In this document: piece by piece, positions 3 to 18,547 of the stretch
Layout of the letters: each line of letters begins with the position of its first letter
Numbering within the stretch: the stretch's first letter is position 1
NCBI GenBank assembly: GCA_947629745.1
Contig: CANREZ010000001.1
Location: 189,181-222,597, forward strand
Length of the DNA: 33,417 nucleotides
Direction: 5' to 3'
Source: an uncultured Clostridia bacterium
Lineage (GTDB): Bacteria; Bacillota; Clostridia; Christensenellales; UBA1242
Made by a program: the position numbers and the translations under genes
Notes under the pieces: generated by a model
What the model saw: the letters and a program-made list of their open reading frames with translations, nothing else
Told to the model about the DNA's origin: nothing
Database searches by the model: none

Positions 3-3000
3 GCTAACGTAGATTACTTCGAGATCACATCTCGTGATGCAAATAACGGGACACTTGGCGTTGTCACATTCAATCAATTATACAAGTCTGGTGACAACTT
101 CTATCGTCTAAATCAAGATATAGCAGGCGCACGCGGGCAACGCGTGGCAAAGGTTAGCGAACAGATCACTTCTAACCCGAGCGATTATGTCACAATAACC
201 GACCGCGTATTTGACGGGCAATTGTATTTGGCCGTATTCGTGGGCGAAAACTTCAGGTCGACAAATTCTGTCGTCATCACTCTTTATGGCTATAATAAAG
301 AAGGCAATGTCGTCTACACAAAGGAGATAAACTTATTTGTTGTGGAATCCCCAAGGATTGTCATGGCTTATGAGAATATGAATTACGGCGTCGTAGCACC
401 AAATACTACTATGGACTTCGTAGCCGTGAAGTATGGATTCACGGAGGATATAGACTTCCGCGACTCAACTATCCTTAGAAATGGCCAAGTGATAAATAGT
501 GTGCTAAATAATAATTTTGAGATAGTACATCTATCGGGCAATAATTATAGACTGCGCGCAACCTCGGTGAATGTAGGAGACACTATCATCCTGCGTGCTC
601 GTGCTACAAAGATTGTAGAGGGCAGGATGCTACAGGCTGCATTCGAATTGGATATCAAGGTAGCGACATTCGTTATCGACCGATTCACTATATCTCAGGG
701 CACGGACGGCGTGCTGATAGACAATGGTTATCTGCATGGAATATTCGGTCAATCCTATCCAATGAATATCAAGCTTTATACCACCAACCCAAATATAGAT
801 AATTCCACAATGTTGACGGATAAGGCAAACGAATTTAGTACCAGTGACCATACATCATTTAAATATAGACTAAATAGTAATGATGATAACTATACAGAGC
901 TTGATAAACCTCAAGATAATACTAATGAGACTACGAGTTATGCAGGATTCTCCGCTACATACAAGGTGGCAGAGAAGAAATATTATCTGCGTAATACCGA
1001 TATAGATACCACCACACTTGTTAGTATCTACATCACATATGTTTACAACGAAGATGGTAGCATCACCATTGTCGATGACGCGTCAACAAATGGATTACTG
1101 TATAAATTTAGTCGAACTATCGAATTTGGATTCAATTGCTATAGGTCGAGCGACAACGAACATCCTGAGCCAATCGAGAGCGCAGATCAATTCCTCGACG
1201 CTATGAAGAGTGGCACTAGTGACTATATCCTGATGAACGATATTACGCTAACTAACTGGAAGCCAATTGACACCAACGTTAATAGCTTCGATGGCAATGG
1301 ATACTCTATCACAATCAATTCTTTTGATACATCAGAATTACCATCTGACACGACCAGTGTGAATGCCGGAATATTTGGCACAATCGCCGATGGCACTATT
1401 ATCAAGAACGTCATAATAATCGTCCCACCTACTACAGATAGTATTGAAGACGAGAAGGCTATTGCAAACCTCAATAATCCACAGAGCGTCACCAATCACA
1501 CATTCGACTTAGTGGCAGATATGAATGGTCACTCGACTATTAGATTTGGATTACTTGCCGGCACGAATAGAGGTAGCGTAACCAACGTGCAGATATCATA
1601 TATCGCAGGTAATATCCCATCATATAGAGGGGGCTATATTGATCAAACGCACTTAGATAGGACCTCATCCTTTGTGCGTGTGAATGCTCCTACAGAGGGC
1701 GTGCGTGCAAGCATCGGATTGCTCGTTGGAACGAACTTTGGTTATATCACCAATTCCAGTGTGGAAAATGTCTCCATCATCGGCGTTGGCTATGTCGGAG
1801 GACTAGTTGGTGAGAATGGCAATAAGATATCGTCATCATATTTTAAGGGTGGCAATATCCAGAATCAATCCACATCATCTCAGGAAGCAGGCACAGGTGG
1901 ACTTGTAGCATACAACAACGCTAATGCATCCATCACCTACTCCTATGCACTTGGTAGAGAGCAATATCCAGATATGTACTACACCGAGACCGTGCTAGAT
2001 AGGAATTATACTACTGGTAATGGCACAAAGGATATCTCAGGTATAGCAGATAATGAGAAGCAAAACTTCGCAGGGTCTAGATACGATGATCTAGATAGTA
2101 GCCTAAAGGGCTATCGTGCGATGAATAGCAGTATATCTGCCAATACTCCAGCAGGTGGATTCACCTATTACAATGCAGGATACATCACCAATTCTTATAG
2201 CAACATCCTAGTCAATGGTTCGGCATCTGCAGGATTTGTCTATCACAATACAAATAGTGGACAGATCACTGAGACTTACTCACTATCGTCCGTGAGACTA
2301 AATTCTACTACGCACTCACCATTCACAGGTAGAAATACAAATGGTAGTTACCTTGATGAGGGTAGTATCGGTAGTAGTTACTATCTAAAACTAGACAGAC
2401 AACCAATTTTAAACAATAAAAATGGCGAGGAAACTTATAGTGAAGACTTCGCTGATACCAATGGGGCAGATGAAAATCTAGTGATACTAGAGCATGCTAA
2501 CCCAATCAATTCCGCACAGTTTGCTAATTACACTACGTTCGCTGGTTTCGCATTCAACGATACCGATGCAGAGGAAGATATCCTCACATCTCGTGCAAGC
2601 GTCGTGTGGTTCATGCCAACGAGTTATGCGGATAGTAATACTATTGGAAATGGAGCAGAGAATTTCAAACGCTCTATCTATAGGTTTGGCAGACCAGAGT
2701 TGGTCTCAGCTAACCTCAAGACTATTTCTTATAGGAACTATGCGGATGACGTCATATACGACACATCCGATCCAGATAACGTGCCACAAGTGAATTACGA
2801 GTGGGATGAGAATTACATCATCGGCACTACTGTGGCAAATCCATACCTCATCCACAGTGCGTCAACATTTGATGAGCAAATGGTCAATGCTACTGCGCTA
2901 AAAGGTACAGGCCAAGCAGCAGCTACGAGCAATCAGTCAATCTTCACCCGTATGATAAACGATATATCCTATAGGAATGACGATGGCACGCAAGTACCTA

Positions 3001-6000
3001 TCAATACTTATACAATCAATTATCAAGGTATGCTCGATGGCAACAACATGACAATTAGTGATATAGGAGTTGTTGCAGACTTCACAGAGGAGGAAACCAA
3101 AGTCTCCAATATCACCGACCTTGGATTATTCGCTAAGATTACTCGTGGTATAGTAAAGAACGTAAATCTCGTAGTCGAATCAGTAGATGGCTCGGCTGTG
3201 AAATACGTGGGCTCGCTCGCAGGAGAAGTGGTCGATTCCTACATCTTCAACGTAGATATCACGGGAGGAGAAAATACTGTCATCCACGGACTAAATGCAG
3301 TCGGTGGAGCAATTGGTAGAGTTTCCGGCAAGAGCGAGATAGTCAATGTCTCGGCAAATATTAGCGCACAGGCACACATGTCAGTGCATAGGAATGACTA
3401 TTACAATGGTTACTCCGCAGTGGATACCACATACGAGAGTTATAATACAAATGGAGACAATATCTCAAGAGTATCCTACGTCGGTGGGGTAATTGGAATT
3501 GTCGACGTTACAGTTAGGTCAAATAGCGTAGGCACGGGCAGTAGGACCTTTGGTTCACGTGTGCGTGTTATCTCTTCTCGTGGCGCAATACTGACAGGTG
3601 AGAACGTCGGAGGACTTGTTGGATACCTAAGCGATTCCTCATCGATGAGCAATAGCTACTTTGTGGTAGACCCAACTACTTCTCCAAGGTTCTATGGCAC
3701 AAGGTCAGTCGGTGGAGCAGTGGCTGAGAATCACGGCACATTGGACCGCGTGTATATCGAGCACGTCGCATCGACGCAAAATACAATTGACCAATATTTG
3801 AAGAATAATGCAAGTAGAAACAATGTATATAGCACATCTAACTACAGTGAGCTATTCGGTTATAATACAAAGACTCAGATGCGTAATAGGAACGCTCACT
3901 ACGTGGGAGGCTTAGTCGGTATCAACATAGGTGGAGATATCGGCAATAGTTATAGCAAGGTGCCAGTAGTAAGTTACGATAGCTTGTACGCAGGAGGCCT
4001 AGTTGGTTACTCCATAGCAGGCTCTATCACCAATTCTTACACTACATCAAATGTCAGGTCAAACAAAGTAGCAGGTGGTCTTGTCGGCTACGTGTTATCC
4101 ACATACAATATTTCAACAGATGGGGATAATAAGTCCATCGACTTGTATATCTCGAATATCAGCGATTACATGCTGACAGAGAGCAATGAGAATATCGCAA
4201 AAGTGCCAACGCTTATCGATGGCAGCACAACACTTTCTATCACCGGTGGCGTGGCTATGAATACTTGGAACGAAGGAGATATCACAGGCCAACTCCCATA
4301 TGCATATGTGAAAGGTGCATTCGTCGGTGTCATCAATGATAATAAATCTAATGATGATATATCCTACGCACTCAGTACCAACCTCGTAGAGGATAGGGCA
4401 AGAGTGGAGGATAACTACTATGCATTTATCACCGGCCTTGACCCAATTGGTTATGAGGAGCAATCAGCAAGAGAGATCAACTTAACTCCAAAGACTGTAG
4501 ATACTAAGAATGTCAATACTCTATATACCGGTGGTCTAAAGGTGCGTGACGAAGCACAGCAGACAGAGACATACAATTACTACTTGTACAAGAATCTATC
4601 CGCTTACGCATCAGGCAGGTCGTACAGTGAGTTTGTAAGTAGAACCCTCACATATCTAGGCCAGAACGATTGGAACGACAAGAATTGGAATAATAAGGCT
4701 GAAGATGGGAAAATAGATTTCGGTAGTTTAGGTAGTGATAAGATAATTGCCAACGACATCTATGGAGTTTACTCCGATGTGTATTGGGATGGCATCAATG
4801 CTTCTACTGTCGGTACGGACAATTTCGTGACGCCACATATCAAGCAAGAGACCTACAAGAGTGTGGTCTATGTGTACAACGAAAAGGATCTAAATACTCT
4901 TCGCGACTACGTGGATAGCGAATTCATCATCATGAACGACATCGAATTGCAGCATCCATGGGTGCCAATGACCGAACCATTCATGGGCACACTCCGTAGT
5001 AGTGACGGGCAGCATTATAGTATTTCGAATGTAAATATAGTGGATTGTGCTAGCGAAAATGTTGGATTCTTTGAGACAATCTCAGGCGCTACACTAAAGG
5101 ACTTTGACCTCGGTATCAATCAGATTACAGCAAAACCAGCTGGGGATATCAAGTCACAGAATGTCGGCGGCTTAGTAGGAAAGATAGTTTCCGGCACAGG
5201 CAGCATTATCCAGAATATTAAGGTGTATGGCATATCCGCTGTATCAGCAGATGTAACGGGTATAAAGGATGGCAAACTAAATGGCCATGTCACTGCAATC
5301 AATCCTCGCTCACTTGGTGGAGTGATTGGTCTATCCCAGAGCGTCACAATAGATAGCGTGACAAACGAGGGCCTCACACTAAATGCTTATTATGACAATA
5401 ACTTTGGCCCACAGACAGGTGCAAATGCGGGAGATATCCAGGCAAACGATATAGGTAGTGGTACTACAGGAATATCCAATATCGGCATCGGCGGTATCAT
5501 TGGTTATGCTAATAATAGTTCACCAAATCCATCTGTCTATGGCACAATGGATGTAGATGCGGTGAAAAATGCCGAGATCAAGCCTCAGATATATGTATCA
5601 GGTAGTGCTGAGGTAGGCTACAATTCATCTATAGGTGGATTGATTGGTCACTTCTCCGAGGCAACACTGATGTTTAATAGCGAGATAGATGTAAATGGAC
5701 ATGAAATCTCCAAGACAGATATCATAGGAGCCCTTGCTACTAAATATAAGGATAGTAATCTAGATAGCTCTTACAATGTATCCAATATCACAGTGGATGC
5801 AACGAATCTTAGTGTGGCAAGTGGCAAAGACTTGCGCCTAAGTGCAGGCATAGGCTACTACTCAGTCACACAGTGTGCAGAGAATAACGCAGTGATGCAG
5901 ACTGCAGACTTTAGCGGTGACGAGATTAGATTGGATGTCACAATCAGTGACTCTCACGTGAAATCATCAGCTACTACACCATCCGCACAACTAGTCGGTG

Positions 6001-9000
6001 GCGCCTTTGGTAGACTGGATATCACTTGTAACAATGGTGTATCTGTCGACAGCGCATCAAATACCATAAATATTGATACTAGTGCAAAGAGATATGTCGT
6101 CGGTGGTGAAGTTACGAATGTTAAGTTTACTACTTCAAAGGAAGTAAACGACATTGGTGGTTTTTGTGGATCTATCAAGGCAATTGTAGATACAGTAAAT
6201 ATTCAGCAGGTATCTATTACTGGTACCAGCACTAATAACAAAGTAGGTCTCTATGCAGGGTCTACCTATGAATATTCATCTACCAATATTGATATATCAA
6301 GTAACTCCTCTTCTTTGGAGATAACTGGTAATGCAGATGTTGGTGCTTTGATTGGAAATGTAGATGGCACAGCAATTAGTGATTGTGGCGTACAGGCAAA
6401 TATAACTTGCGGTGGCGCACATTATTTTGGTGGTCTAATTGGAATAGTAGATAGTAGTAGTTTGATCACTAGATGTTATGTAAATAACAATTACAAACAA
6501 CATAGTGAAGATAATGAATTTGCAGGCAGCTTTGGTGGAGCATTTGGATATTTAAATAATGCAATAATAAGTAACGTTAGCGCAGGCGGCACTATTGCTG
6601 CTGATACGGAAAAAACAATTGACTTTGACAAAGCAGGAGGATTTGTATCATCCATTGGTCAAGTTGTGCAAATAAATTATTGTTATACTAACACACCGCT
6701 CCAAACTATAGATAGCGACACATTAGCAGGATTTGTGTACAGTGTTTCAGATCCATATTCAGATATAGATCATTGTGCCACAACTTCTAGTATGGTAATC
6801 TTAGGAGATGTTGACACTAATATATATGGTTTTACTGGCAGCAAGGTCCATGTTAACAATAGTTTTACTTCCGCTCATGTGATGTATCATCATGCTTACA
6901 GTGAGGAAGCAGGTAATTTTACATATGAAGTCTTTGGAGATATTAGTGGAGAGAATAACACTTATGTTTCCAGTGTTATTTCAGAAAAATTCCATGTTAC
7001 AAATATTAGTGATGCACAGGCCGTAGAAGTACCAGATGTAAATCTTAGCCAAGTACATGTATTTACTGATACCCATGATATTAACAAGGGTATTAAACCA
7101 TTTGTGGTGGCAGATACAGATATTGGCGAATGTGCTGACGACTGCGTGTACTTCATGAATGGCAATAATGTGACAGCAACTTCTCTTCCAATGAGGTCCA
7201 TGATCGTTGGAGCAAGCAGTATTCCAGCTACCTTTGAAAACAATGGTGTCATCATACATAGCAGTATTGGTCATGATACTACAATAACCAACCATGGTAT
7301 CTTAGATACAATTACTGCAACGACCGATACTGCAACCAGCTATAATGTAACTCTAAATGATCAACAAGCAAACTCCGTGGTCTATAGGTTGGCAGCAAAT
7401 AGCTTATCTACAGACGCAGCAGGGACATTCGAGGAAATCAGTGTAACTACTGCAAACGTAGGAGATAATACCATTCTCCACAACTCAATAATTGGCGAAA
7501 CAATTGTATTAAAGCAAAATGGCTCAACTAGTTATGTAGCAGTTTCGGGAATTGTTAACCAATCTATCTCTGAGATAATGAAATATAGCAATTCTTCAGA
7601 TTACACTTATGTATTCGACCCAATAGATGTATTCTATCTATCGATAAATGAGAATGGTACGTACAAGACTCCAGCTCTTCGCTGGATAACCAATGTGGAG
7701 TATTGGAATGATATAGATTCTAGCGCAGTCAATCTAGATGTAAATGAAATCAATGCATACACTGTATCAGACGGCGAGGAGCTATATGCAGCATTAAAGA
7801 ATAACGACAAAGACATAGTGCTGACCGAGGATATTGACTTATCCGCCAAGATGTCCAAGCCAATTTCAACATTCAATTATTCGATAGAAGGCAACGGCCA
7901 TAGCATATTACACTTAACGATGGCAGTAGGGCATATAGCAGCATTTATATTAGAGGGTGATCCTACAATTACCAACCTTGGTTTTGAGGATGGATATGTA
8001 TATAGTGGTGGTCCTTATGCTTCAGGTTTGATGTTCTCTAACTATGGAACTATTAACAAAGTGTTTGCAGATAGCCTTGAGGTTCTTTCACCAATAGGTA
8101 TAGCTAGTGGGCTTGTAGATCGTAACGAGAAGTCCATAACCAACGTCTATGCAGTTAATAACAGATTGTGGGAGGATACTAACCATACTGAGCATGCAGA
8201 TAATGGAATATTTGGTTTATACGCCGATGGAGTTTTACGTAGTAATGCAACGAATGCTACATTCGAAACATCTTATTCCAGTTTCAAGGATGTGAAAACT
8301 TGTGACAGTGATAATTGCACAAATGTCTATGGTTACGTTGATGAACAGAAGTTACAAAATGACGACCTAGGATTTGACTGGATGGCAACTTGGACACGAA
8401 ATAGTGTGACAAACGATGGCACACCAATACTTATGTTCCAAGCAACATATTGGGCTGAGCGTGGCAAAGACGCCGTGCTTGGTACTGATGTGGCTGTCAG
8501 CGGTCATAATATTACTATTAAGACCAATACCGGTCTTGGCTGGTTATCATTCTGGACGAATAATATTGGCAATGAGCAATCCGGCGCAAAGTCTTTCTCT
8601 AATGGAAATGAGATTGTAGACTTTAACGCAAGTGATATGAAGATTTCTTCATCACCTGTGTATATTAAGAACAGTGGTGGCTCATGGCAGACTATTAGCC
8701 ATAGCAATAGTAATGATTACACAATAGGTAATCTCCGTACTGCATCTATTACAATAGAAAGTGACCTAGATATGAATGGTTCACTCTGGACACCTATGTA
8801 TGGTGGGTTAGCCTTCATTGGTGAATTCAATGGTAATAATAAGACTATTAGTCATCTAGCTACGACCACTAGATCCACTAAGTTTAATGAAGAACTTGAA
8901 AATATGAATAATGACTTAGCACTCTTCAACCGTGTGGGTGGAAGCGACCATGCCACAAATATCCATAATCTAAAGATATCTAATGCAGATTTCAGAGGAG

Positions 9001-11468
9001 TAAATTACATCGGTGGTGTGGTGGCAGATACTACATCTACTAATAACAATATTACTTTAGATAATATCACTGTGGAGAATAGTATCTTTAGAGGAGATAG
9101 ATATATCGGTGGTATTGGTGGCAGAGTTTCGCTCGATCTATCCGGTGGCAAGATTACTAACAACACAGTAAACGGCTGTACTATCACAGCTACTGGTGCT
9201 ACTGAGGGTGGTGCATTTGCTATACTAAATGGTACATCAAGCTATGCAAACGATCATACATGCATCTACAATAACAAAGTGCTATCCACTACGATTACAG
9301 GAAAATCTGTGATGGGTGGTTTCGCCGCACAGACATCCAATGTGTGGATCAATAAAACGGAGATAAGTAATGTCACTCTGTCAGCTACAGTATTCACTAC
9401 ATCTACTAGTTTCCAGTCCGGTCTTGGATTCGTGGTAGGAACGCTAGATTCGGGGTATATCACCCAATCAAGAGTGAATAACCCAATAGACGATGTGGTA
9501 ACTTCTAATGGAAGAGAAGTATTTGGCGCAATAGTTGGATATGCTTCCGGTGCAACTCTTGGTGAAAACACTGTGACAAGTGCACAGAGATTTGAAAGTA
9601 TTGCATACCTATGTCACACATCAGATGGCGTCAAAGTCAGGAACTTCTACACAGACGCTGCTTCTGGCAACCTCTATGGCTCATCTAAGCCAACAGCAAT
9701 ATTCCTAACTAAATTAGGTGGCAATTTCGTGGATAACACCTTGCCAGACAAAGTGGCAAAGAATACCTATATCTGGCAATCTGGCGATAACAGCACGATA
9801 AATCTAGAGAATGTAGATTTGCCATATAATCAAACTAATTTTGATATATATAGCGCGGATGATTGGAATATTTTAAGATATATATTGACGCTTGAATTTA
9901 CTGGGGATAAGACTACAGGAAATGCTGGTACATATCATGATGCTGATACATCATATACAGTTACTGTGAAGAATAGTATAAAACTTGAAGGTGGATTGTC
10001 TCATAATATGGTTGGTAACGACAGCTATAGATTCATAGGTACAGTGAGCGGAAACGGAGCAAAAGTAGTTACATTGAGTGTACCAGCAGATGAAGAGGCT
10101 GATAAACAAATGCTGAATGATAGCGGAAATACACAATTTGGATTATTCCCAAATGTTGCTAATACTAAATTTGATGCATTCTATTACGATTGTAATTATG
10201 ACTTCGCAAAATCGCTTGATAAAGACGACTTGACTATAGGTCAGTTGATTGGATACGGACAGAGAGTAACTATTAGCTTAGGGAAATACAATTTTGCTGA
10301 TATGACATATTTCCATAGTGGTGGATGTGTGGGGTCTATTGCTGGTAGACTATATTATGATATATTTACATCAAGTCTTGGATTTAGTAATATCATAAAG
10401 CCAGATACTATGACTACAAGAGATATAATGACTAATTCTTATAGCGTTGGATTGTATATCGGCGTATATATGTATTGGGGATCTCAACCAGGATCTCACA
10501 TACAAACGCTTTATACAATATATCCAGGTTATTCGTATGATATTTCTTCATTAAATACTTCATCAAATACAGACCCTACATCATTTTTAAATGAAGATAA
10601 ATTAAATACGTCAGAAACAAAAAATTTAGAAATTAATATGTATTCAAGAATAAGAATATATGATTCTGGAACATTAAATATCTCAAATAGATCATTCCAT
10701 AGCGCAGGTCAATATGAAGGAGATATAGTAAAAGTTGAATTATCCTTTAATAAAAGTGTAAATAATATTCGTCAAGATTATATCAATTTACAAAATCATC
10801 CTGGTGGTGGACCTAATCGATTTGGAAAAGAATATTCTTCTGATAACATAGGTGAATTCGAAAAAGCAGCTTATCAAAGTTATGGAACACGAACATATGA
10901 TGAACAATCAATTAATTTAATGAATGAAGATTATGGAATTCAACCAACTGCTATTGTTGGACCTGGAGGTGGAAATCAACCTACGAAAGCAGTATTATCT
11001 CAAGGATGGAGCGTGTCCTATTTTAAAAAGAATACATTTAAGATATATGATGTAGACAATGATCGTTTTGACTTAAATATGGAAGTATATGATAACGGAT
11101 ATTTATGGGAAATAGGTGAAGAAAGTGAAAAATTTTACACACAAGTAGATATTAAAGAAGGACACACTTATACAGTAGATTTTATGGATGAAAATATAGG
11201 ACAATGGGTAGGTATATGGCAATCTCCAACATACAAAACAGAAAGATACCCATCAGGTATAGTGACTACTCCACCTTCAGGAACTCCACTAGTAGGCGTA
11301 AATTCTTTATTAATTGGTCTTATCGATTATGATAAACTTTATTTATATTTTGACATTTTGGCAGATAAGAATGGAGAAGTAATGATTTTTGATTGGACTT
11401 ATGATATAAATAAGAGCCCTGGACCACGTAATGCTGAAGACAATTGTTTATTAATTCAATACCTCTAA
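3..11468 (+). CDS. Giant GLUG-motif surface/adhesin-like protein, 5'-partial (continues upstream of the window)
   Basis: The 3774-aa ORF is called from a GTG at 144, but the frame is open to base 3 (translates ...ANVDYFEITSRDANNGTLGVVTFNQLYKSGDNFYRLNQDIAGARGQRVAKVSEQ), so 144 is not the real start. Many GLUG-like repeats (GGLVGENG, GGLVGYLSDSSSMSNSYF, GGLVGINIGGDIGNSYS, GGLVGYSIAGSITNSYT) and 'DGNGYSITI'-type beta-helix strands. No LPXTG at the C-terminus. Confidence 0.9.
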   Translation, partial: ANVDYFEITSRDANNGTLGVVTFNQLYKSGDNFYRLNQDIAGARGQRVAKVSEQITSNPSDYVTITDRVFDGQLYLAVFVGENFRSTNSVVITLYGYNKEGNVVYTKEINLFVVESPRIVMAYENMNYGVVAPNTTMDFVAVKYGFTEDIDFRDSTILRNGQVINSVLNNNFEIVHLSGNNYRLRATSVNVGDTIILRARATKIVEGRMLQAAFELDIKVATFVIDRFTISQGTDGVLIDNGYLHGIFGQSYPMNIKLYTTNPNIDNSTMLTDKANEFSTSDHTSFKYRLNSNDDNYTELDKPQDNTNETTSYAGFSATYKVAEKKYYLRNTDIDTTTLVSIYITYVYNEDGSITIVDDASTNGLLYKFSRTIEFGFNCYRSSDNEHPEPIESADQFLDAMKSGTSDYILMNDITLTNWKPIDTNVNSFDGNGYSITINSFDTSELPSDTTSVNAGIFGTIADGTIIKNVIIIVPPTTDSIEDEKAIANLNNPQSVTNHTFDLVADMNGHSTIRFGLLAGTNRGSVTNVQISYIAGNIPSYRGGYIDQTHLDRTSSFVRVNAPTEGVRASIGLLVGTNFGYITNSSVENVSIIGVGYVGGLVGENGNKISSSYFKGGNIQNQSTSSQEAGTGGLVAYNNANASITYSYALGREQYPDMYYTETVLDRNYTTGNGTKDISGIADNEKQNFAGSRYDDLDSSLKGYRAMNSSISANTPAGGFTYYNAGYITNSYSNILVNGSASAGFVYHNTNSGQITETYSLSSVRLNSTTHSPFTGRNTNGSYLDEGSIGSSYYLKLDRQPILNNKNGEETYSEDFADTNGADENLVILEHANPINSAQFANYTTFAGFAFNDTDAEEDILTSRASVVWFMPTSYADSNTIGNGAENFKRSIYRFGRPELVSANLKTISYRNYADDVIYDTSDPDNVPQVNYEWDENYIIGTTVANPYLIHSASTFDEQMVNATALKGTGQAAATSNQSIFTRMINDISYRNDDGTQVPINTYTINYQGMLDGNNMTISDIGVVADFTEEETKVSNITDLGLFAKITRGIVKNVNLVVESVDGSAVKYVGSLAGEVVDSYIFNVDITGGENTVIHGLNAVGGAIGRVSGKSEIVNVSANISAQAHMSVHRNDYYNGYSAVDTTYESYNTNGDNISRVSYVGGVIGIVDVTVRSNSVGTGSRTFGSRVRVISSRGAILTGENVGGLVGYLSDSSSMSNSYFVVDPTTSPRFYGTRSVGGAVAENHGTLDRVYIEHVASTQNTIDQYLKNNASRNNVYSTSNYSELFGYNTKTQMRNRNAHYVGGLVGINIGGDIGNSYSKVPVVSYDSLYAGGLVGYSIAGSITNSYTTSNVRSNKVAGGLVGYVLSTYNISTDGDNKSIDLYISNISDYMLTESNENIAKVPTLIDGSTTLSITGGVAMNTWNEGDITGQLPYAYVKGAFVGVINDNKSNDDISYALSTNLVEDRARVEDNYYAFITGLDPIGYEEQSAREINLTPKTVDTKNVNTLYTGGLKVRDEAQQTETYNYYLYKNLSAYASGRSYSEFVSRTLTYLGQNDWNDKNWNNKAEDGKIDFGSLGSDKIIANDIYGVYSDVYWDGINASTVGTDNFVTPHIKQETYKSVVYVYNEKDLNTLRDYVDSEFIIMNDIELQHPWVPMTEPFMGTLRSSDGQHYSISNVNIVDCASENVGFFETISGATLKDFDLGINQITAKPAGDIKSQNVGGLVGKIVSGTGSIIQNIKVYGISAVSADVTGIKDGKLNGHVTAINPRSLGGVIGLSQSVTIDSVTNEGLTLNAYYDNNFGPQTGANAGDIQANDIGSGTTGISNIGIGGIIGYANNSSPNPSVYGTMDVDAVKNAEIKPQIYVSGSAEVGYNSSIGGLIGHFSEATLMFNSEIDVNGHEISKTDIIGALATKYKDSNLDSSYNVSNITVDATNLSVASGKDLRLSAGIGYYSVTQCAENNAVMQTADFSGDEIRLDVTISDSHVKSSATTPSAQLVGGAFGRLDITCNNGVSVDSASNTINIDTSAKRYVVGGEVTNVKFTTSKEVNDIGGFCGSIKAIVDTVNIQQVSITGTSTNNKVGLYAGSTYEYSSTNIDISSNSSSLEITGNADVGALIGNVDGTAISDCGVQANITCGGAHYFGGLIGIVDSSSLITRCYVNNNYKQHSEDNEFAGSFGGAFGYLNNAIISNVSAGGTIAADTEKTIDFDKAGGFVSSIGQVVQINYCYTNTPLQTIDSDTLAGFVYSVSDPYSDIDHCATTSSMVILGDVDTNIYGFTGSKVHVNNSFTSAHVMYHHAYSEEAGNFTYEVFGDISGENNTYVSSVISEKFHVTNISDAQAVEVPDVNLSQVHVFTDTHDINKGIKPFVVADTDIGECADDCVYFMNGNNVTATSLPMRSMIVGASSIPATFENNGVIIHSSIGHDTTITNHGILDTITATTDTATSYNVTLNDQQANSVVYRLAANSLSTDAAGTFEEISVTTANVGDNTILHNSIIGETIVLKQNGSTSYVAVSGIVNQSISEIMKYSNSSDYTYVFDPIDVFYLSINENGTYKTPALRWITNVEYWNDIDSSAVNLDVNEINAYTVSDGEELYAALKNNDKDIVLTEDIDLSAKMSKPISTFNYSIEGNGHSILHLTMAVGHIAAFILEGDPTITNLGFEDGYVYSGGPYASGLMFSNYGTINKVFADSLEVLSPIGIASGLVDRNEKSITNVYAVNNRLWEDTNHTEHADNGIFGLYADGVLRSNATNATFETSYSSFKDVKTCDSDNCTNVYGYVDEQKLQNDDLGFDWMATWTRNSVTNDGTPILMFQATYWAERGKDAVLGTDVAVSGHNITIKTNTGLGWLSFWTNNIGNEQSGAKSFSNGNEIVDFNASDMKISSSPVYIKNSGGSWQTISHSNSNDYTIGNLRTASITIESDLDMNGSLWTPMYGGLAFIGEFNGNNKTISHLATTTRSTKFNEELENMNNDLALFNRVGGSDHATNIHNLKISNADFRGVNYIGGVVADTTSTNNNITLDNITVENSIFRGDRYIGGIGGRVSLDLSGGKITNNTVNGCTITATGATEGGAFAILNGTSSYANDHTCIYNNKVLSTTITGKSVMGGFAAQTSNVWINKTEISNVTLSATVFTTSTSFQSGLGFVVGTLDSGYITQSRVNNPIDDVVTSNGREVFGAIVGYASGATLGENTVTSAQRFESIAYLCHTSDGVKVRNFYTDAASGNLYGSSKPTAIFLTKLGGNFVDNTLPDKVAKNTYIWQSGDNSTINLENVDLPYNQTNFDIYSADDWNILRYILTLEFTGDKTTGNAGTYHDADTSYTVTVKNSIKLEGGLSHNMVGNDSYRFIGTVSGNGAKVVTLSVPADEEADKQMLNDSGNTQFGLFPNVANTKFDAFYYDCNYDFAKSLDKDDLTIGQLIGYGQRVTISLGKYNFADMTYFHSGGCVGSIAGRLYYDIFTSSLGFSNIIKPDTMTTRDIMTNSYSVGLYIGVYMYWGSQPGSHIQTLYTIYPGYSYDISSLNTSSNTDPTSFLNEDKLNTSETKNLEINMYSRIRIYDSGTLNISNRSFHSAGQYEGDIVKVELSFNKSVNNIRQDYINLQNHPGGGPNRFGKEYSSDNIGEFEKAAYQSYGTRTYDEQSINLMNEDYGIQPTAIVGPGGGNQPTKAVLSQGWSVSYFKKNTFKIYDVDNDRFDLNMEVYDNGYLWEIGEESEKFYTQVDIKEGHTYTVDFMDENIGQWVGIWQSPTYKTERYPSGIVTTPPSGTPLVGVNSLLIGLIDYDKLYLYFDILADKNGEVMIFDWTYDINKSPGPRNAEDNCLLIQYL

Positions 11469-11500: not shown

Positions 11501-11620
11501 ATGCGCTTATGGATGTGTTATATGCCTTTTATGTGGCTTTGATATATCGCTTATTTGATTGGTTATTTCCGCATAAAGGTTGGGAAAATTTGCCAAACTA
11601 AGGTAATGATGGGAGGCTTT

Positions 11621-13138
11621 ATGGGGAAGTACACAGAGGCTGTAGACAACTCAGAATTTAAGATAGATACTCCTATGGTGGATATCCCCGAGGGGAAGAT
11701 AGGAAAGTCGTTATCACGAAATATGGCAAAGCTTGACCGGGCTTATGCTAGCGACTTAATCAAGAAATCTATCACTATTGGTGGCAAGGATGCCGAGATA
11801 GTATATATCCTAGGATTAGTCGAGGTCAATTATATCTCCCGTTACATAGTAGACCCCCTACTTGCGGCAAAAGGCAAAGTTGGGACGATAGAGGATATCA
11901 AGGGGCACTTGCTATTGCCCGAGGCGAAGATATGTGAGACCTTTAGCGATATAAATATAGAGATATGCAAGGGCAAGGCGATAATCCTAGTAGATGGGAT
12001 GAATCAAGCGCTGTCCTGCTCGGTGGATAACTTCAAAGTGAGATCGATCGAGGAGCCGCCAAATAGTGCCGTGCTATATGGTCCGCGTGCGGGATTTACC
12101 GAGGATATCAAGAGTAATATAAACCAGATCCGAAAAATACTCTCTACACCACATTTAGTGCGAAAGAGCATGAAGATCGGGCGCATCACACACACCGATG
12201 TGGCCATAATGTACCTAGATAACGTGGCAAGCCCCGAGGTAGTGAGAAAGATAGAAAAAGCTTTGCTTGAGATAGATATAGATGGAGTGATAGATAGCCA
12301 TTACCTCACGCAGTACTTGTCTAGCCGAAAGTACAGTGTGTTTAAACAAGTGGGCATTACCGAGAAACCCGATATTGCCGCAGCCAAGATGTTGGAGGGT
12401 AGGGTAGCAATCATTGTGGATGGATCACCAATTGTGTTGACATTGCCATTCATGCTAATAGAGGATTTGCAGTCCAGCAACGATTATTACTCCAATAGGC
12501 AGAGGGCAGTATTCCTAAGAGTGCTTAGGATGCTATCCATAGTGATCACTGTGTATATCCCTGCCATGTACGTAGCCGTACAAATTTACCACTACAAGGC
12601 CATTCCATTAAAGTTCCTAGTGACTATCATTAACGCGACACAAGGCCTGCCATTCACACCGTTTGCTGAGATGGTGTTTACCCTACTATTATTTGAGATA
12701 CTATATGAGGCTAGCCTTAGGATGCCATCATATCTAGGCCTTGCTATGAGCATTGTGGGGGCGCTAGTGTTAGGCGATATGGCAGTTGCAGCAGGATTAG
12801 TCAGCCCACCAGCTGTGATGATAATGGCTCTATCCGGCATCACGCTATACACCATTCCGCACCAAGTGACACAGTTTTCGCTGCTAAGGCTATTATTCGT
12901 GGCTGTGGGCGGCACACTAGGATTCTATGGCATTGTGATACTCACCATATACATTGTGATGTATTTGTGCGACTTTGACAGCCTCGGAACGCCATATCTT
13001 GCGCCAATATCACCTATGTATGAGGTGGATATGAAGGATGGGATATTGAAGTACGATATTAGCAAGATGACGACAAGACCTCGTGCTATCCCATCAATAA
13101 ATACTCGTCGTCAAAGGAATAAGGATAATAAGCGATGA
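11621..13138 (+). CDS. gerAA: GerA-family spore germination receptor subunit A
   Basis: GerA-family block 'EEPPNSAVLYGPRAGFTEDIKSNINQIRKIL' and C-terminal membrane helices. The ORF track starts at 11555, but ATG 11621 has a GGGAGG ribosome-binding site at 11611-11616. Confidence 0.92.
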   Translation: MGKYTEAVDNSEFKIDTPMVDIPEGKIGKSLSRNMAKLDRAYASDLIKKSITIGGKDAEIVYILGLVEVNYISRYIVDPLLAAKGKVGTIEDIKGHLLLPEAKICETFSDINIEICKGKAIILVDGMNQALSCSVDNFKVRSIEEPPNSAVLYGPRAGFTEDIKSNINQIRKILSTPHLVRKSMKIGRITHTDVAIMYLDNVASPEVVRKIEKALLEIDIDGVIDSHYLTQYLSSRKYSVFKQVGITEKPDIAAAKMLEGRVAIIVDGSPIVLTLPFMLIEDLQSSNDYYSNRQRAVFLRVLRMLSIVITVYIPAMYVAVQIYHYKAIPLKFLVTIINATQGLPFTPFAEMVFTLLLFEILYEASLRMPSYLGLAMSIVGALVLGDMAVAAGLVSPPAVMIMALSGITLYTIPHQVTQFSLLRLLFVAVGGTLGFYGIVILTIYIVMYLCDFDSLGTPYLAPISPMYEVDMKDGILKYDISKMTTRPRAIPSINTRRQRNKDNKR

Positions 13139-14256
13139 AAGAAAAGATATCTCCTAGGCAAGCAAGTGTGCTAATATTCCTTGCCATAATCTCAATGAAA
13201 TTCCTATTCATGCCAGCCACGATGACTAGGTTTTCCGGCCTGGATATTTACCTGTGTGTGGCCTTTGGCCTCGTGTGTGACATGCTAACTCTAGTCATTT
13301 ATTACTATTGCTCAAAGAAAATGCCAGATGCTACACTTTTTGACATTTTATCCCGAGTTTTTGGCAAGATTGTCACTAAAATTGTCTATATTGCCCTAGC
13401 ATTTATATTCTTTATTAAGGCAGTATTTATCATCAAGGCACTGCATCTGTATATCCTAGATACACTGTATGAGACTTTGCCTTATGTGATGTACACCGTG
13501 CCTATTGCGATACTCATTTTCTACGCGCTTAGGAAGAATCTTGTCACATACGCTAGGTGTTGTGAGATATTCCTAATTGTGATAGCCCTAGCCATTATTG
13601 CTTGCATCACAATACCAATTCAGGCGATTGACACTCTAAATTTCTTCCCAATGCTAAAGGATGGATTCCTCGCCCTGCCACGCGGATATCTCTACTGTGC
13701 GTATGGGTTCGGGGATTATTTGGTGCTAGCGGTGCTGCTTGGTCATATCGATTACAGCCGTTCAAAGGGTCATAGCATCATCTATATTAGCATAGTTGCA
13801 GCGAGCTTAATTGTGGCATATTATGCTATATTTGTTGGAGTATTCGGCAATATGGGTGTGGCGCAAGCACTAGCTCTATCCGACCTATCCATCCATGCGC
13901 AGTTGCCAAATACACTAGGCAGGCTCGACTGGCTGATAATCTTCCTGTGGTCATTCACATTGGTGCTAGAATGTGTGCTGTACCTATTCTACTGCAAACG
14001 CTGTATTGTGGCCGCCACAACGGATAGAATTGACAAGTATCTGCCAATTGTAATTATTACACTTATGATTACCACAATGGTGATACTCTATCGCGATATA
14101 GACCGAGTGCTAGGACTTGTGACAAGCACGGCTTTTGTCAGCATAGCATTTAGCATATATTTTGGCGTGCCAGCACTAATACTCATTGCGTTGGTTGTAG
14201 GGAAAATTAGGGAGAGGAGTCATGAAAGAAAAGTTAAAAAACCTATGCGTGCATAG
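13135..14256 (+). CDS. gerAB: GerB-family spore germination permease (APC-type)
   Basis: ATGA 4-bp overlap with the upstream gene; multi-TM protein starting 'MKEKISPRQASVLIFLAIISMKFLFMPA', typical of the GerAB family; position in the A-B-C operon. Confidence 0.9.
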   Translation: MKEKISPRQASVLIFLAIISMKFLFMPATMTRFSGLDIYLCVAFGLVCDMLTLVIYYYCSKKMPDATLFDILSRVFGKIVTKIVYIALAFIFFIKAVFIIKALHLYILDTLYETLPYVMYTVPIAILIFYALRKNLVTYARCCEIFLIVIALAIIACITIPIQAIDTLNFFPMLKDGFLALPRGYLYCAYGFGDYLVLAVLLGHIDYSRSKGHSIIYISIVAASLIVAYYAIFVGVFGNMGVAQALALSDLSIHAQLPNTLGRLDWLIIFLWSFTLVLECVLYLFYCKRCIVAATTDRIDKYLPIVIITLMITTMVILYRDIDRVLGLVTSTAFVSIAFSIYFGVPALILIALVVGKIRERSHERKVKKPMRA

Positions 14257-15451
14257 CACAGCTATAGTATTCTTTGTGCTCGCAGTGTTCCTCGTGCCTA
14301 TCGCTATGTACACAGCCTCGGCTTTTGATAGATACGCCCTTGTTGCAGTGTTGGGCCTTGATGCAAAAGATGACAAGTACGAGGTATCCGCACTAGTTAT
14401 CACCCCACAGGTGTCGGGGCAGTTCTCCGAGAGCCTTAGGAAGTTTGATTCATCAGGGGATAGTGTGGCGCAGTGCCTGCTATCCATGGGAATTTCCCTT
14501 GGCAAGCAAATTGACCTTGCTCACTGCGAGGCCATAGTGCTAGGAGATGAAATACTGGAAGATGATGCGACAAAGTATCTAGATTATTTCATGAGAAATA
14601 GCAATCTTGCGATAAACAGCATTCTCATCAACGCACCAGGTGGGGCAAATGAGTTGCTCGATGCAATATCTAGTGCGCAGACCAATGACGATATCTCCAT
14701 CCAAAATATTATAGCGTACCACAAGGATGTGCTATTCACCGCCGAGGTCAATGTGGGGAATTATTATAGATATTACAATAGGCCGGACCAGACGTATTTC
14801 CTGCCAATTTTTGAGGGCAAACAGGGTGGAAGTGCGGCAAATGATGGTGGTAGCAAAGCCGGAGGAGAAGCCGAAGGTGACGGCGGTGCTGGAATGCCCC
14901 AGGGTGGCGGTGGCGGAGATAAGACGATTGACGCAGCAGGCAAGACCGCACTAATTAAGGCCGGCAAGAAACTCCGAGAACTCGACCAAGAAGAGATCAT
15001 TGCATACAATATTTTCTCACGTTGGACTACTAGGACGCAGTTTACCGTTCCCGATCCATACCACGATGGAATGCTCGTTATAGACGGTACGGAGAAGAAA
15101 GTGAGTGTGAAGACAAGATTTGAGGACGGTGTGCCAGTGATTACCTTTAAGGTATCCATGCTAGCCCTATCCGATGAATTGCAGAAGTCTAGATACAACC
15201 TCACCGATTTCTTCACTACAGATAGTATGATAAATGTCCGCATGAAGGATATTATCCACGATCGCATGGAAGGTTATCTAGATATGTTAGCCGCTAATAT
15301 TGCACGTGACAACACCGATACGCTAGATATCTACCAGCATTTTGATGCGTTCCACCACAGCGAGTGGCAGGAGTTTGTAAAACGTTATCCAAATGATTAC
15401 CTATCCCATGTGAAATTTGAGTTCCAGTCCGACATCAAGGATACGCTGTAG
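14222..15451 (+). CDS. gerAC: Ger(x)C-family germination protein, atypical (no lipobox Cys)
   Basis: Overlaps gerAB by 35 bp; AGGAG RBS before ATG 14222; 'FDRYALVAVLGLDAKDDKYEVSALVITPQ' aligns with the GerAC N-terminal block; Gly-rich insert mid-protein; third gene of the operon. Confidence 0.85.
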   Translation: MKEKLKNLCVHSTAIVFFVLAVFLVPIAMYTASAFDRYALVAVLGLDAKDDKYEVSALVITPQVSGQFSESLRKFDSSGDSVAQCLLSMGISLGKQIDLAHCEAIVLGDEILEDDATKYLDYFMRNSNLAINSILINAPGGANELLDAISSAQTNDDISIQNIIAYHKDVLFTAEVNVGNYYRYYNRPDQTYFLPIFEGKQGGSAANDGGSKAGGEAEGDGGAGMPQGGGGGDKTIDAAGKTALIKAGKKLRELDQEEIIAYNIFSRWTTRTQFTVPDPYHDGMLVIDGTEKKVSVKTRFEDGVPVITFKVSMLALSDELQKSRYNLTDFFTTDSMINVRMKDIIHDRMEGYLDMLAANIARDNTDTLDIYQHFDAFHHSEWQEFVKRYPNDYLSHVKFEFQSDIKDTL

Positions 15452-15949: not shown

Positions 15950-16888
15950 TTAACGGTCCATGCCTTCATCAAATTTTTCGGAAATTCTTGGTTTATTATT
16001 TTCAAGTGCTACTTTTAGGACGGTATCTAGCATATCCATATATTTATCTATATAGTGTTCATCCCAATGTGCGTTGTAATTTTCCTTTTGCTGTCTAAGG
16101 AGTCTTAGATATTCCACTAATTCTATATAAGTACGTGGATGTGGAGCGTCACAAGGCTGTGCTTTCTTAAAAATTTCCAGCCAAAGCACATTCGCATCAT
16201 TTAGGATGCTTGTGGCATTGTAAGCATATTCCCTAGAATTGTTATTAAAGGACTTGTAGCAAACATTCTTCCTGCCATAGAAATTGTCCACTCTATTTGC
16301 AAGATTTTCATACGAACCTTTGATCTCGTCGATATCTACTTGAGTTAGGAAAGTACTTAAGCAATATCTTAGTCTAAATAATTCGTCCTCAAAGAATATC
16401 TTGTCAGCATCGACATTGGTCTCGGTGAGGCGAGTATCGTCATAATAACTTCGCCTATCTACAGACCTTGGTTGTCTATAATCGTAGCTACCCTCGATGG
16501 TATCTACTATTAGTGACTCGTTTAGCGGGCCATCGTTGCGCAAACGATTGAGAATTGAACGTAGTGTACTTTGTCGGTCAAGGAATCTATTCATAAAATA
16601 TGAGTAGATATCCAAATTCTTAAGCTCAAGTGGGGTCATCTTGGAAACGTCATTTACAAAATTTGGATAGTCGACAATCATTATATTGCCAAAGCTACGG
16701 ATAAATGGTATGAACAAATTGCATGCGGTGTCGGTGTATTTATTGCTCTTGCCATACACTTCGTAAAACATAGGACATGCTACGCCTAGACTCCAGAGTG
16801 TATCGGTATATATCTTCATAGCACAACTCATGCCAGCTTCAAGTATATCTCTAGCTTCTTCACTTAGATTGAATTTCTCTTTTTTCAT
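15950..16888 (-). CDS. Uncharacterised cytosolic protein ('gene X')
   Basis: Intact ORF with AGGAG RBS and a strong promoter upstream; start trimmed from TTG 16891 to ATG 16888. No TM segment or family motif recognised. Confidence 0.8.
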   Translation of the reverse strand: MKKEKFNLSEEARDILEAGMSCAMKIYTDTLWSLGVACPMFYEVYGKSNKYTDTACNLFIPFIRSFGNIMIVDYPNFVNDVSKMTPLELKNLDIYSYFMNRFLDRQSTLRSILNRLRNDGPLNESLIVDTIEGSYDYRQPRSVDRRSYYDDTRLTETNVDADKIFFEDELFRLRYCLSTFLTQVDIDEIKGSYENLANRVDNFYGRKNVCYKSFNNNSREYAYNATSILNDANVLWLEIFKKAQPCDAPHPRTYIELVEYLRLLRQQKENYNAHWDEHYIDKYMDMLDTVLKVALENNKPRISEKFDEGMDR

Positions 16889-16920
16889 CAAATTCTTCTC
16901 CTATTTTACATTTCAATAAT

Positions 16921-16949
16921 ATTATCTTAATTTTAAATATAAAAGTCAA
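16921..16949 (-). promoter_or_regulatory. SigA-type promoter of gene X
   Basis: Minus strand: TTGACT (16949-16944), 17 bp, GATAAT (16926-16921). Confidence 0.75.
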
Positions 16950-16965
16950 TAAATTTTTTATCACT

Positions 16966-16982
16966 TTGTGCAATCTGCACAA
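16966..16982. promoter_or_regulatory. Palindromic candidate operator upstream of gene X
   Basis: TTGTGCA-ATC-TGCACAA, perfect 7-bp arms; ends 16 bp upstream of the -35 box. Confidence 0.7.
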
Positions 16983-17045
16983 GAGGATTTATGGGGAGAA
17001 TGAAAAGATGTAGGGATATAACAAACTAGTGTTAAAAGTATTTGA

Positions 17046-17326
17046 GTTAGAGGGTAGAGGAGTTGGAACAAAAGTGGGTGAAAAGAGCCTGCGTTAGTCC
17101 CCTCAGGTGGCACGCCACTTTCCTAAATGTAAATTATGTGTACTCATGTAACTATGTGGTGGAATATAGTTGGAATATAAGTTGGGAATGTATGCTCGCT
17201 CAATCCCCTCAGACCGCAGACGCGGCCAGCTCCCCCTACTACGGGGCGCCTATATAAGGATTTGGATTTGCAGGGCGCCTTATATGGATGAAATTAATAA
17301 GATAACTACTTCACTTGTGGGCGCCT
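17046..17326 (+). repeat. Composite intergenic repeat copy B (arm I + arm II + 3' extension)
   Basis: Same architecture as copy A; central hairpin CCGC-AGAC-GCGG; extension 17261-17326 'TTTGGATTTGCAGGGCGCCTTATATGGATGAAATTAATAAGATAACTACTTCACTTGTGGGCGCC' differs from copy A at about three positions. Confidence 0.9.
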
Positions 17327-17400
17327 AGAAAGAAGGAATTATTTTAATTAGAGATTATAAAGAACTATTTTGTAAACGCGATGTTTAATAGCAAAAAATG

Positions 17401-17421
17401 TTTTGTGCAATGTGCACAAAA
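17401..17421. promoter_or_regulatory. Palindromic candidate operator upstream of gene Y
   Basis: TTTTGTGCA-ATG-TGCACAAAA; core 17403-17419 matches the gene X site except in the 3-nt centre. Confidence 0.7.
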
Positions 17422-17435
17422 AGTGTATTTACTTA

Positions 17436-17465
17436 TTGACTTATGGGTATGAAATTTAAGATAAT
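17436..17465 (+). promoter_or_regulatory. SigA-type promoter of gene Y
   Basis: TTGACT (17436-17441), 18 bp, GATAAT (17460-17465). Confidence 0.75.
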
Positions 17466-17518: not shown

Positions 17519-18547
17519 ATGAGAGTAACCGATAACTCAAGTTTGCACACAATTCATGTGTCAGATAGAATTCAAGAGAGAATTCTTGGGTGCAAAAATT
17601 TGGATGATGCTATGTACAATGTAGTGGCAAAAATTTGTAGTGACATTAGTCATAGCAAACTAGATGAGGTAAAACGCGAGAAATTATTTGATCTAGTAGT
17701 TATTCCGCTAATGGATTTGATCCCACAGTACAGGTCAATTGCTTCTTCTTGGGAAAATGCATTTAGCAATTATGATAGAGAGTACGAGGAAAAAGTCTCA
17801 ACAATAAAGGATCCGAAGATATTAAAACATTACTACAAGGAAACTCTTGCAAAAGAAGTGGAATTGGACAAACAAGTGCTCCATACTACAAGGTATTTCC
17901 TATCTGTATATCGTAACGCAGTAGACGATGTGGAGTCTATGATAAAAAAGGACGAGATTGACGAATCCCTAGTCATGCCAATATATGATTTATTCACCAA
18001 ATATTGCGGCACACTACGTATTGGCCTAAGGGATGAAGTGAAGGATATTGACACCGATGACGTGGCAAAGCGTGAACTCTACTTTGACATGATAGGTGAA
18101 GATATTAGATATTTCATGGATATGCTAAGTAGTATCCATACGCTTGCGAACAAGCATATGAAAAGGACGGACAAAAAGCGCCTATCTGTGAATAGGCAGC
18201 ACGATAGATTATCATCCTACAACATGGCAATAATGCTGCCAAAGCAATTAAAAATGATGAACCTACTAGAGCATGACCGCGCAACCAATAGGGAAGTTGA
18301 AAGATATTTTAGAGAGGTTCAAGAATTTTACGATAAATTAGCACAGGCTGAAAAGTTGATGGAAAATAACTTCATTAACCTATCTAAGTACAATCCATAC
18401 AGGAATGTAGCAAAAGTCTACAAAGAGGAAAGCAAACTGGGTGATGCCGAACTATATGTCGATACGAAAGTGCCAAGATATGAGGGCGAAGATGACTTCA
18501 TCGACCATAATATATTCTATGGCTACAATGATGATGACGAAAGATAA
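17519..18547 (+). CDS. Uncharacterised cytosolic, helical protein ('gene Y')
   Basis: Intact ORF with GGGGAG RBS before ATG 17519; promoter and terminator present; no family motif recognised. Confidence 0.8.
   Translation: MRVTDNSSLHTIHVSDRIQERILGCKNLDDAMYNVVAKICSDISHSKLDEVKREKLFDLVVIPLMDLIPQYRSIASSWENAFSNYDREYEEKVSTIKDPKILKHYYKETLAKEVELDKQVLHTTRYFLSVYRNAVDDVESMIKKDEIDESLVMPIYDLFTKYCGTLRIGLRDEVKDIDTDDVAKRELYFDMIGEDIRYFMDMLSSIHTLANKHMKRTDKKRLSVNRQHDRLSSYNMAIMLPKQLKMMNLLEHDRATNREVERYFREVQEFYDKLAQAEKLMENNFINLSKYNPYRNVAKVYKEESKLGDAELYVDTKVPRYEGEDDFIDHNIFYGYNDDDER

Follow-up and report, generated by a model that had tools for sequence, protein, structure and literature searches.

The question raised by this locus is whether two orphan genes that carry the same palindrome at the same distance from their promoters answer to one regulator, and to what kind of regulator. 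The relevant features of the window (the whole stretch of 33,417 nucleotides that was analysed, from an uncultured Clostridia bacterium) are listed below, with palindrome centres counted from predicted start sites.

15950..16891, minus strand: gene X, 313 aa, an orphan without Pfam or PDB match
16921..16926, minus strand: -10 box GATAAT of X, spacer 17
16944..16949, minus strand: -35 box TTGACT of X, 16 bp from the palindrome
16966..16982, minus strand: 17-bp palindrome of X (TTGTGCAATCTGCACAA), centred at about -60
17403..17419, plus strand: 17-bp palindrome of Y (TTGTGCAATGTGCACAA), centred at about -61
17436..17441, plus strand: -35 box TTGACT of Y, 16 bp from the palindrome
17460..17465, plus strand: -10 box GATAAT of Y, spacer 18
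17519..18547, plus strand: gene Y, 342 aa, an orphan without Pfam match and without significant PDB match

The first-pass annotation had reported the same palindrome at 16966-16982 and 17403-17419, which was confirmed to the base, and had described the order palindrome, exactly 16 bp, TTGACT, 17 bp (X) or 18 bp (Y) and GATAAT, reading toward each gene, which was found as described at both. Within the window, two palindrome matches with ≤ 2 mismatches were observed versus 0.18 expected. The likeness between the X and Y promoters extends beyond the palindrome, so one of them may be a copy of the other. Homologues of X and Y were absent from the 79 other genomes of the family, and the structure predictions for the two proteins were all-helical and of low confidence (mean pLDDT 52 and 49, respectively), too poor for comparison. 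A hairpin-rich dispersed repeat sits between the two palindromes (17040-17340), with 78 matches in its own genome, about 60 of them over the core CCCCTCAG...AGCTCCCCCTACTA; three core words gave no match in the sister species, and in character the repeat resembles a REP- or MITE-type element restricted to this species. Elsewhere in the window, at 11555-15451, three consecutive genes read, by eye, like GerA, GerB and GerC of a spore-germination operon, the whole genome being just 1 Mb.

To place the palindrome in its genomic context, the joined bacterial contigs (973,366 bases; assembly 95% complete) were searched with the consensus TTGTGCANNNTGCACAA, which gave 6 perfect and 4 one-mismatch copies across the 973 kb. 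Twelve palindromes built from shuffled half-sites gave no perfect copies in the same search (0-1 one-mismatch copies each, the single one coming from one palindrome), and the original half-sites at spacings of 0, 1, 2, 4 or 5 bases had zero copies genome-wide. The 3-base spacing is thus fixed, which matches the need of a dimer with fixed geometry. Searches of Rfam around the sites returned nothing near gathering score, and a literature search on the motif letters found no relevant title.

All six perfect copies lie upstream of a gene, at 65-110 bp. Using a half-site-only score, 14 sites were found ≤ 77 bp upstream of a -35 box among 319 promoter-like sites, compared with a mean of 0.67 and a maximum of 5 for 60 shuffled half-site controls; the promoter linkage for which the earlier reading had proposed a genome scan is therefore present, and the motif is not scattered. 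Distances from site to -35, determined with a matrix that includes degenerate sites, were 15, 16, 16, 17, 17, 20, 29, 43, 43, 56, 57 and 57 bp, with three further matrix sites at 100 bp or beyond and the ctsR site at 9 bp. Five sites (X, Y, o866, o372 and o373) stand 15-17 bp from -35 and are centred near -60, and some others lie about one helical turn above this group, as judged from predicted start sites. Relative to -61.5, two sites are out of helical phase, that of ctsR at about -53 and that of the zinc-ribbon gene at about -64, and class I geometry in the strict sense therefore does not apply at every target; either the geometry is non-uniform or else the protein has more than one mode of action. 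Several degenerate sites score higher because they directly follow T-tracts of the upstream gene's terminator, and part of the degenerate sites may be due to chance.

Perfect sites precede X, Y, o435, ctsR, o856 and o866; most product names of the targets were read by eye from sequence. We take o435 to be a WG-repeat-like protein and o856 to be a zinc-ribbon acidic protein (Pfam support for WG repeats and for the zinc ribbon lies only below cut-offs), while ctsR presumably heads a ctsR-mcsA-mcsB-clpC operon and o866 presumably comes after sigG. The promoters of the WG-repeat-like paralogues o435 and o313 are near-identical, and these two, perhaps X and Y too, may have been copied from each other and hence be non-independent. 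A giant 5840-aa surface-protein-like gene, the 3' part of which occupies window positions 3-11468, is preceded by an array of five sites, four TTTAGTCANNNTGCACAAAA and one TTGTGCANNNTGCATAA (G000 C1:182564-182816, outside the window). Codon usage similar to that of ribosomal genes (≥ 74th percentile) was found for 12 of the 15 listed targets, a list that includes one paralogue without a site (X, 90th; Y, 81st; o435, 94th; o856, 98th; ctsR, tmk and o866, low). The codon usage of most targets would fit strong expression; this is weak evidence, since AT-rich genes can score high too.

Conservation was assessed in the second species of the genus, with a mean identity of 60% over 587 orthologue pairs. 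This species keeps the site at ctsR (10 vs 9 bp to -35), at the zinc-ribbon gene o856 (20 and 20 bp) and at rpoB (28 vs 29 bp to -35, same position), and it has a surface-lipoprotein-like gene with two sites. Copies of the motif with ≤ 1 mismatch number 10 in the own genome, 8 in the sister species and 0-7 in other genera, and perfect copies are rare across the order. Two other genera have perfect sites upstream of rpsJ, in front of the S10 operon (G002, G082, G019 and G071), and a one-mismatch site lies upstream of hrcA in one relative. From the rpsJ/S10 sites and the copy counts of the other genera, it follows that the motif is kept in the family while its targets change, and regulon turnover between genera is quick.

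A single conserved site thus occurs at many promoters and is kept at orthologous promoters. Sequence evidence gives good support to the view that these genes form one regulon under a single regulator, which probably activates them, and the palindrome is most likely the binding site of a regulator that is not of the Crp/Fnr type. We think it probable, with real room for doubt, that TTGTGCANNNTGCACAA is the operator of a homodimeric activator acting just upstream of -35 at sigma-A promoters. Each 7-bp half-site would be bound by one subunit of the homodimer. Placed at about -60, as predicted for X, Y and three other genes, the dimer would make a class I contact with the C-terminal domain of the RNA polymerase alpha subunit; at other targets it would sit farther upstream, or nearer in the case of ctsR. 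CRP at class I promoters binds at -61.5 or farther upstream and contacts the alpha C-terminal domain (PMC2859248). The regulon would be small, about 10-14 promoters, and would comprise species-specific, probably highly expressed genes (X, Y, the WG-repeat-like paralogues and the giant surface protein) together with rpoB, the ctsR-clpC operon and the zinc-ribbon protein. Binding by one protein, activation and the start sites are what we infer here; activation is favoured because the sites are placed ahead of an intact -35 and seldom inside the promoter.

The sign of regulation cannot be read from position alone, and a dimeric repressor could control these promoters from an upstream site, through looping or wrapping or by obstructing the alpha C-terminal domain. 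Repression would be compatible with the good -35/-10 boxes that accompany many sites, the spread of distances (9 to 57 bp) leaves room for other modes, and the five-site array at the surface-protein gene would also suit such a protein. Most simple repressors bind the promoter core or leader, and only 3 sites were found in the promoter core or leader/downstream, versus 14 upstream; we therefore judge repression unlikely. Somewhat less likely still is an element that works with no regulator (a chromosome-structure site, a hairpin or an UP-like sequence) and that spread with copied promoters. The similar X and Y promoters and the near-copies at the WG-repeat-like paralogues speak for such spread, as does the terminator hairpin that directly precedes half of the sites. 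Against it stand the largely unrelated flanks of the six perfect sites, the G/C-containing half-sites at fixed spacing, and the presence of sites at distinct genes (S10, rpoB) of distinct genera. The run behind the palindrome's stem consists of A, not T, so the palindrome is not itself a terminator, and that reading was rejected. A homodimeric activator thus remains the preferred reading, and the earlier suggestion that it would be Crp/Fnr-like fared differently from the rest of that proposal: a shared promoter-linked site at X, Y and about ten other promoters, in an activator-type position, stood, and the Crp/Fnr assignment did not. The class I-like centre at -60/-61 and the outer bases TGTG...CACA had favoured it. 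HTH_Crp_2 (PF13545) is absent from the own genome (95% complete) and was found in 14/14 control genomes, and no gene with cNMP_binding (PF00027) co-occurs with the motif in the 8 motif-bearing genomes, versus 10/14 control genomes with the domain. Known Crp/Fnr sites are TGTGA-N6-TCACA (16 bp) and TTGAT-N4-ATCAA (14 bp); the palindrome, at an odd 17 bp with halves 3 apart only, fits neither. With these domains absent and the site geometry wrong, a Crp/Fnr-family regulator was rejected as extremely improbable, and the reading is largely refuted, within the limits of an assembly that is 95% complete.

Candidate proteins were picked by eye from the genome's proteins and twelve of them were checked against Pfam, a procedure that may miss regulators of novel families. 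Those common to both species include Spo0A, SpoVT-like, ArsR-like, NrdR, HrcA, CtsR, Rrf2, LexA, ArgR, WhiA, Spo0J and a membrane-anchored PadR. LexA was rejected on account of its own GAAC-N4-GTTY box upstream of lexA, and ArgR, HrcA and CtsR on account of operators of known type at their own promoters. TetR o827, three XRE proteins and o521 were rejected for want of a reciprocal best hit in the second species; two of the XRE promoters carry different repeats. Adding a name to the best explanation, the site might belong to ArsR-like o376, SpoVT-like o325, NrdR o489, Rrf2 o651 or membrane-anchored PadR o678, an attribution that we hold only tentatively. All five types are present in both species, and the ArsR promoters of both retain a TGTGCAT element, albeit with its halves arranged oppositely. 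NrdR and Rrf2 have known sites that are unlike the palindrome, and PadR's own promoters bear another motif, TTGCATAGTA. For SpoVT, no consensus site is known (PMC5061766). Ahead of the ArsR-like gene, TATGCGACAAAATAT...TGTGCAT is retained in the two species (L054, upstream of 2828; G001, at the orthologue), and a divergent gene adjoins it. PadR o678 (L038:8256-10025, G000 C10) consists of a PadR-type HTH, a long acidic linker and membrane helices, is mostly single copy where its type occurs, and has its conserved element just above its own -35. Two tandem small proteins at L062:14467-15207 (G000 C7), each without Pfam match, combine a part that may be a winged helix with a membrane helix at the C-terminus and are conserved in the sister species.

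A broader proposal, possible although we would not expect it to hold, is that an undescribed regulator runs a fast-changing activator regulon in which core growth genes (rpoB, the S10 operon) are linked with ctsR-clpC and lineage-specific orphans; such a regulator could be among the uncharacterised ones that members of this family, Clostridia with genomes of about 1 Mb, have in common. What the analysis provides is an operator of defined sequence and a brief list of targets for one regulator of an uncultured lineage, whose genomes are very small and retain few regulators. The targets span rpoB, several orphan genes and, in relatives, the S10 operon; identification of the protein would thus reveal how so reduced a cell tunes its growth, and would offer an entry point to genes that have no known relatives.

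The palindrome shares features with several known systems. PadR-type regulators are near-universal in the family (72/80 genomes), and their promoters carry a TGCA-containing palindrome or half; their motif, GTACTATGCA-N-TGCATAGTAC or half of it, differs from the present one in spacing and outer bases. The Rex operator is TTGTGA-N6-TCACAA, 18 bp. It has the same outer TTGTG...CACAA letters, but the site here is one base shorter, and Rex was rejected because its DNA-binding domain (PF06971) is absent in all 8 motif-bearing genomes. With the CtsR/HrcA regulons, the system has in common that both species keep the ctsR operon as a target and that a one-mismatch site precedes hrcA in one relative; however, the CtsR and CIRCE operators are separate and lie downstream, and CtsR was further rejected since it is missing from G002 and G055, both motif-bearing. 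Compared with CRP class I promoters of the E. coli lac type, the genome lacks a Crp/Fnr protein, the site is TTGTGCA-N3-TGCACAA and not TGTGA-N6-TCACA, and some targets are off phase; what they share is an intact -35 preceded by a palindrome whose centre is near -61, and by analogy a contact with the alpha C-terminal domain as in CRP class I is plausible.
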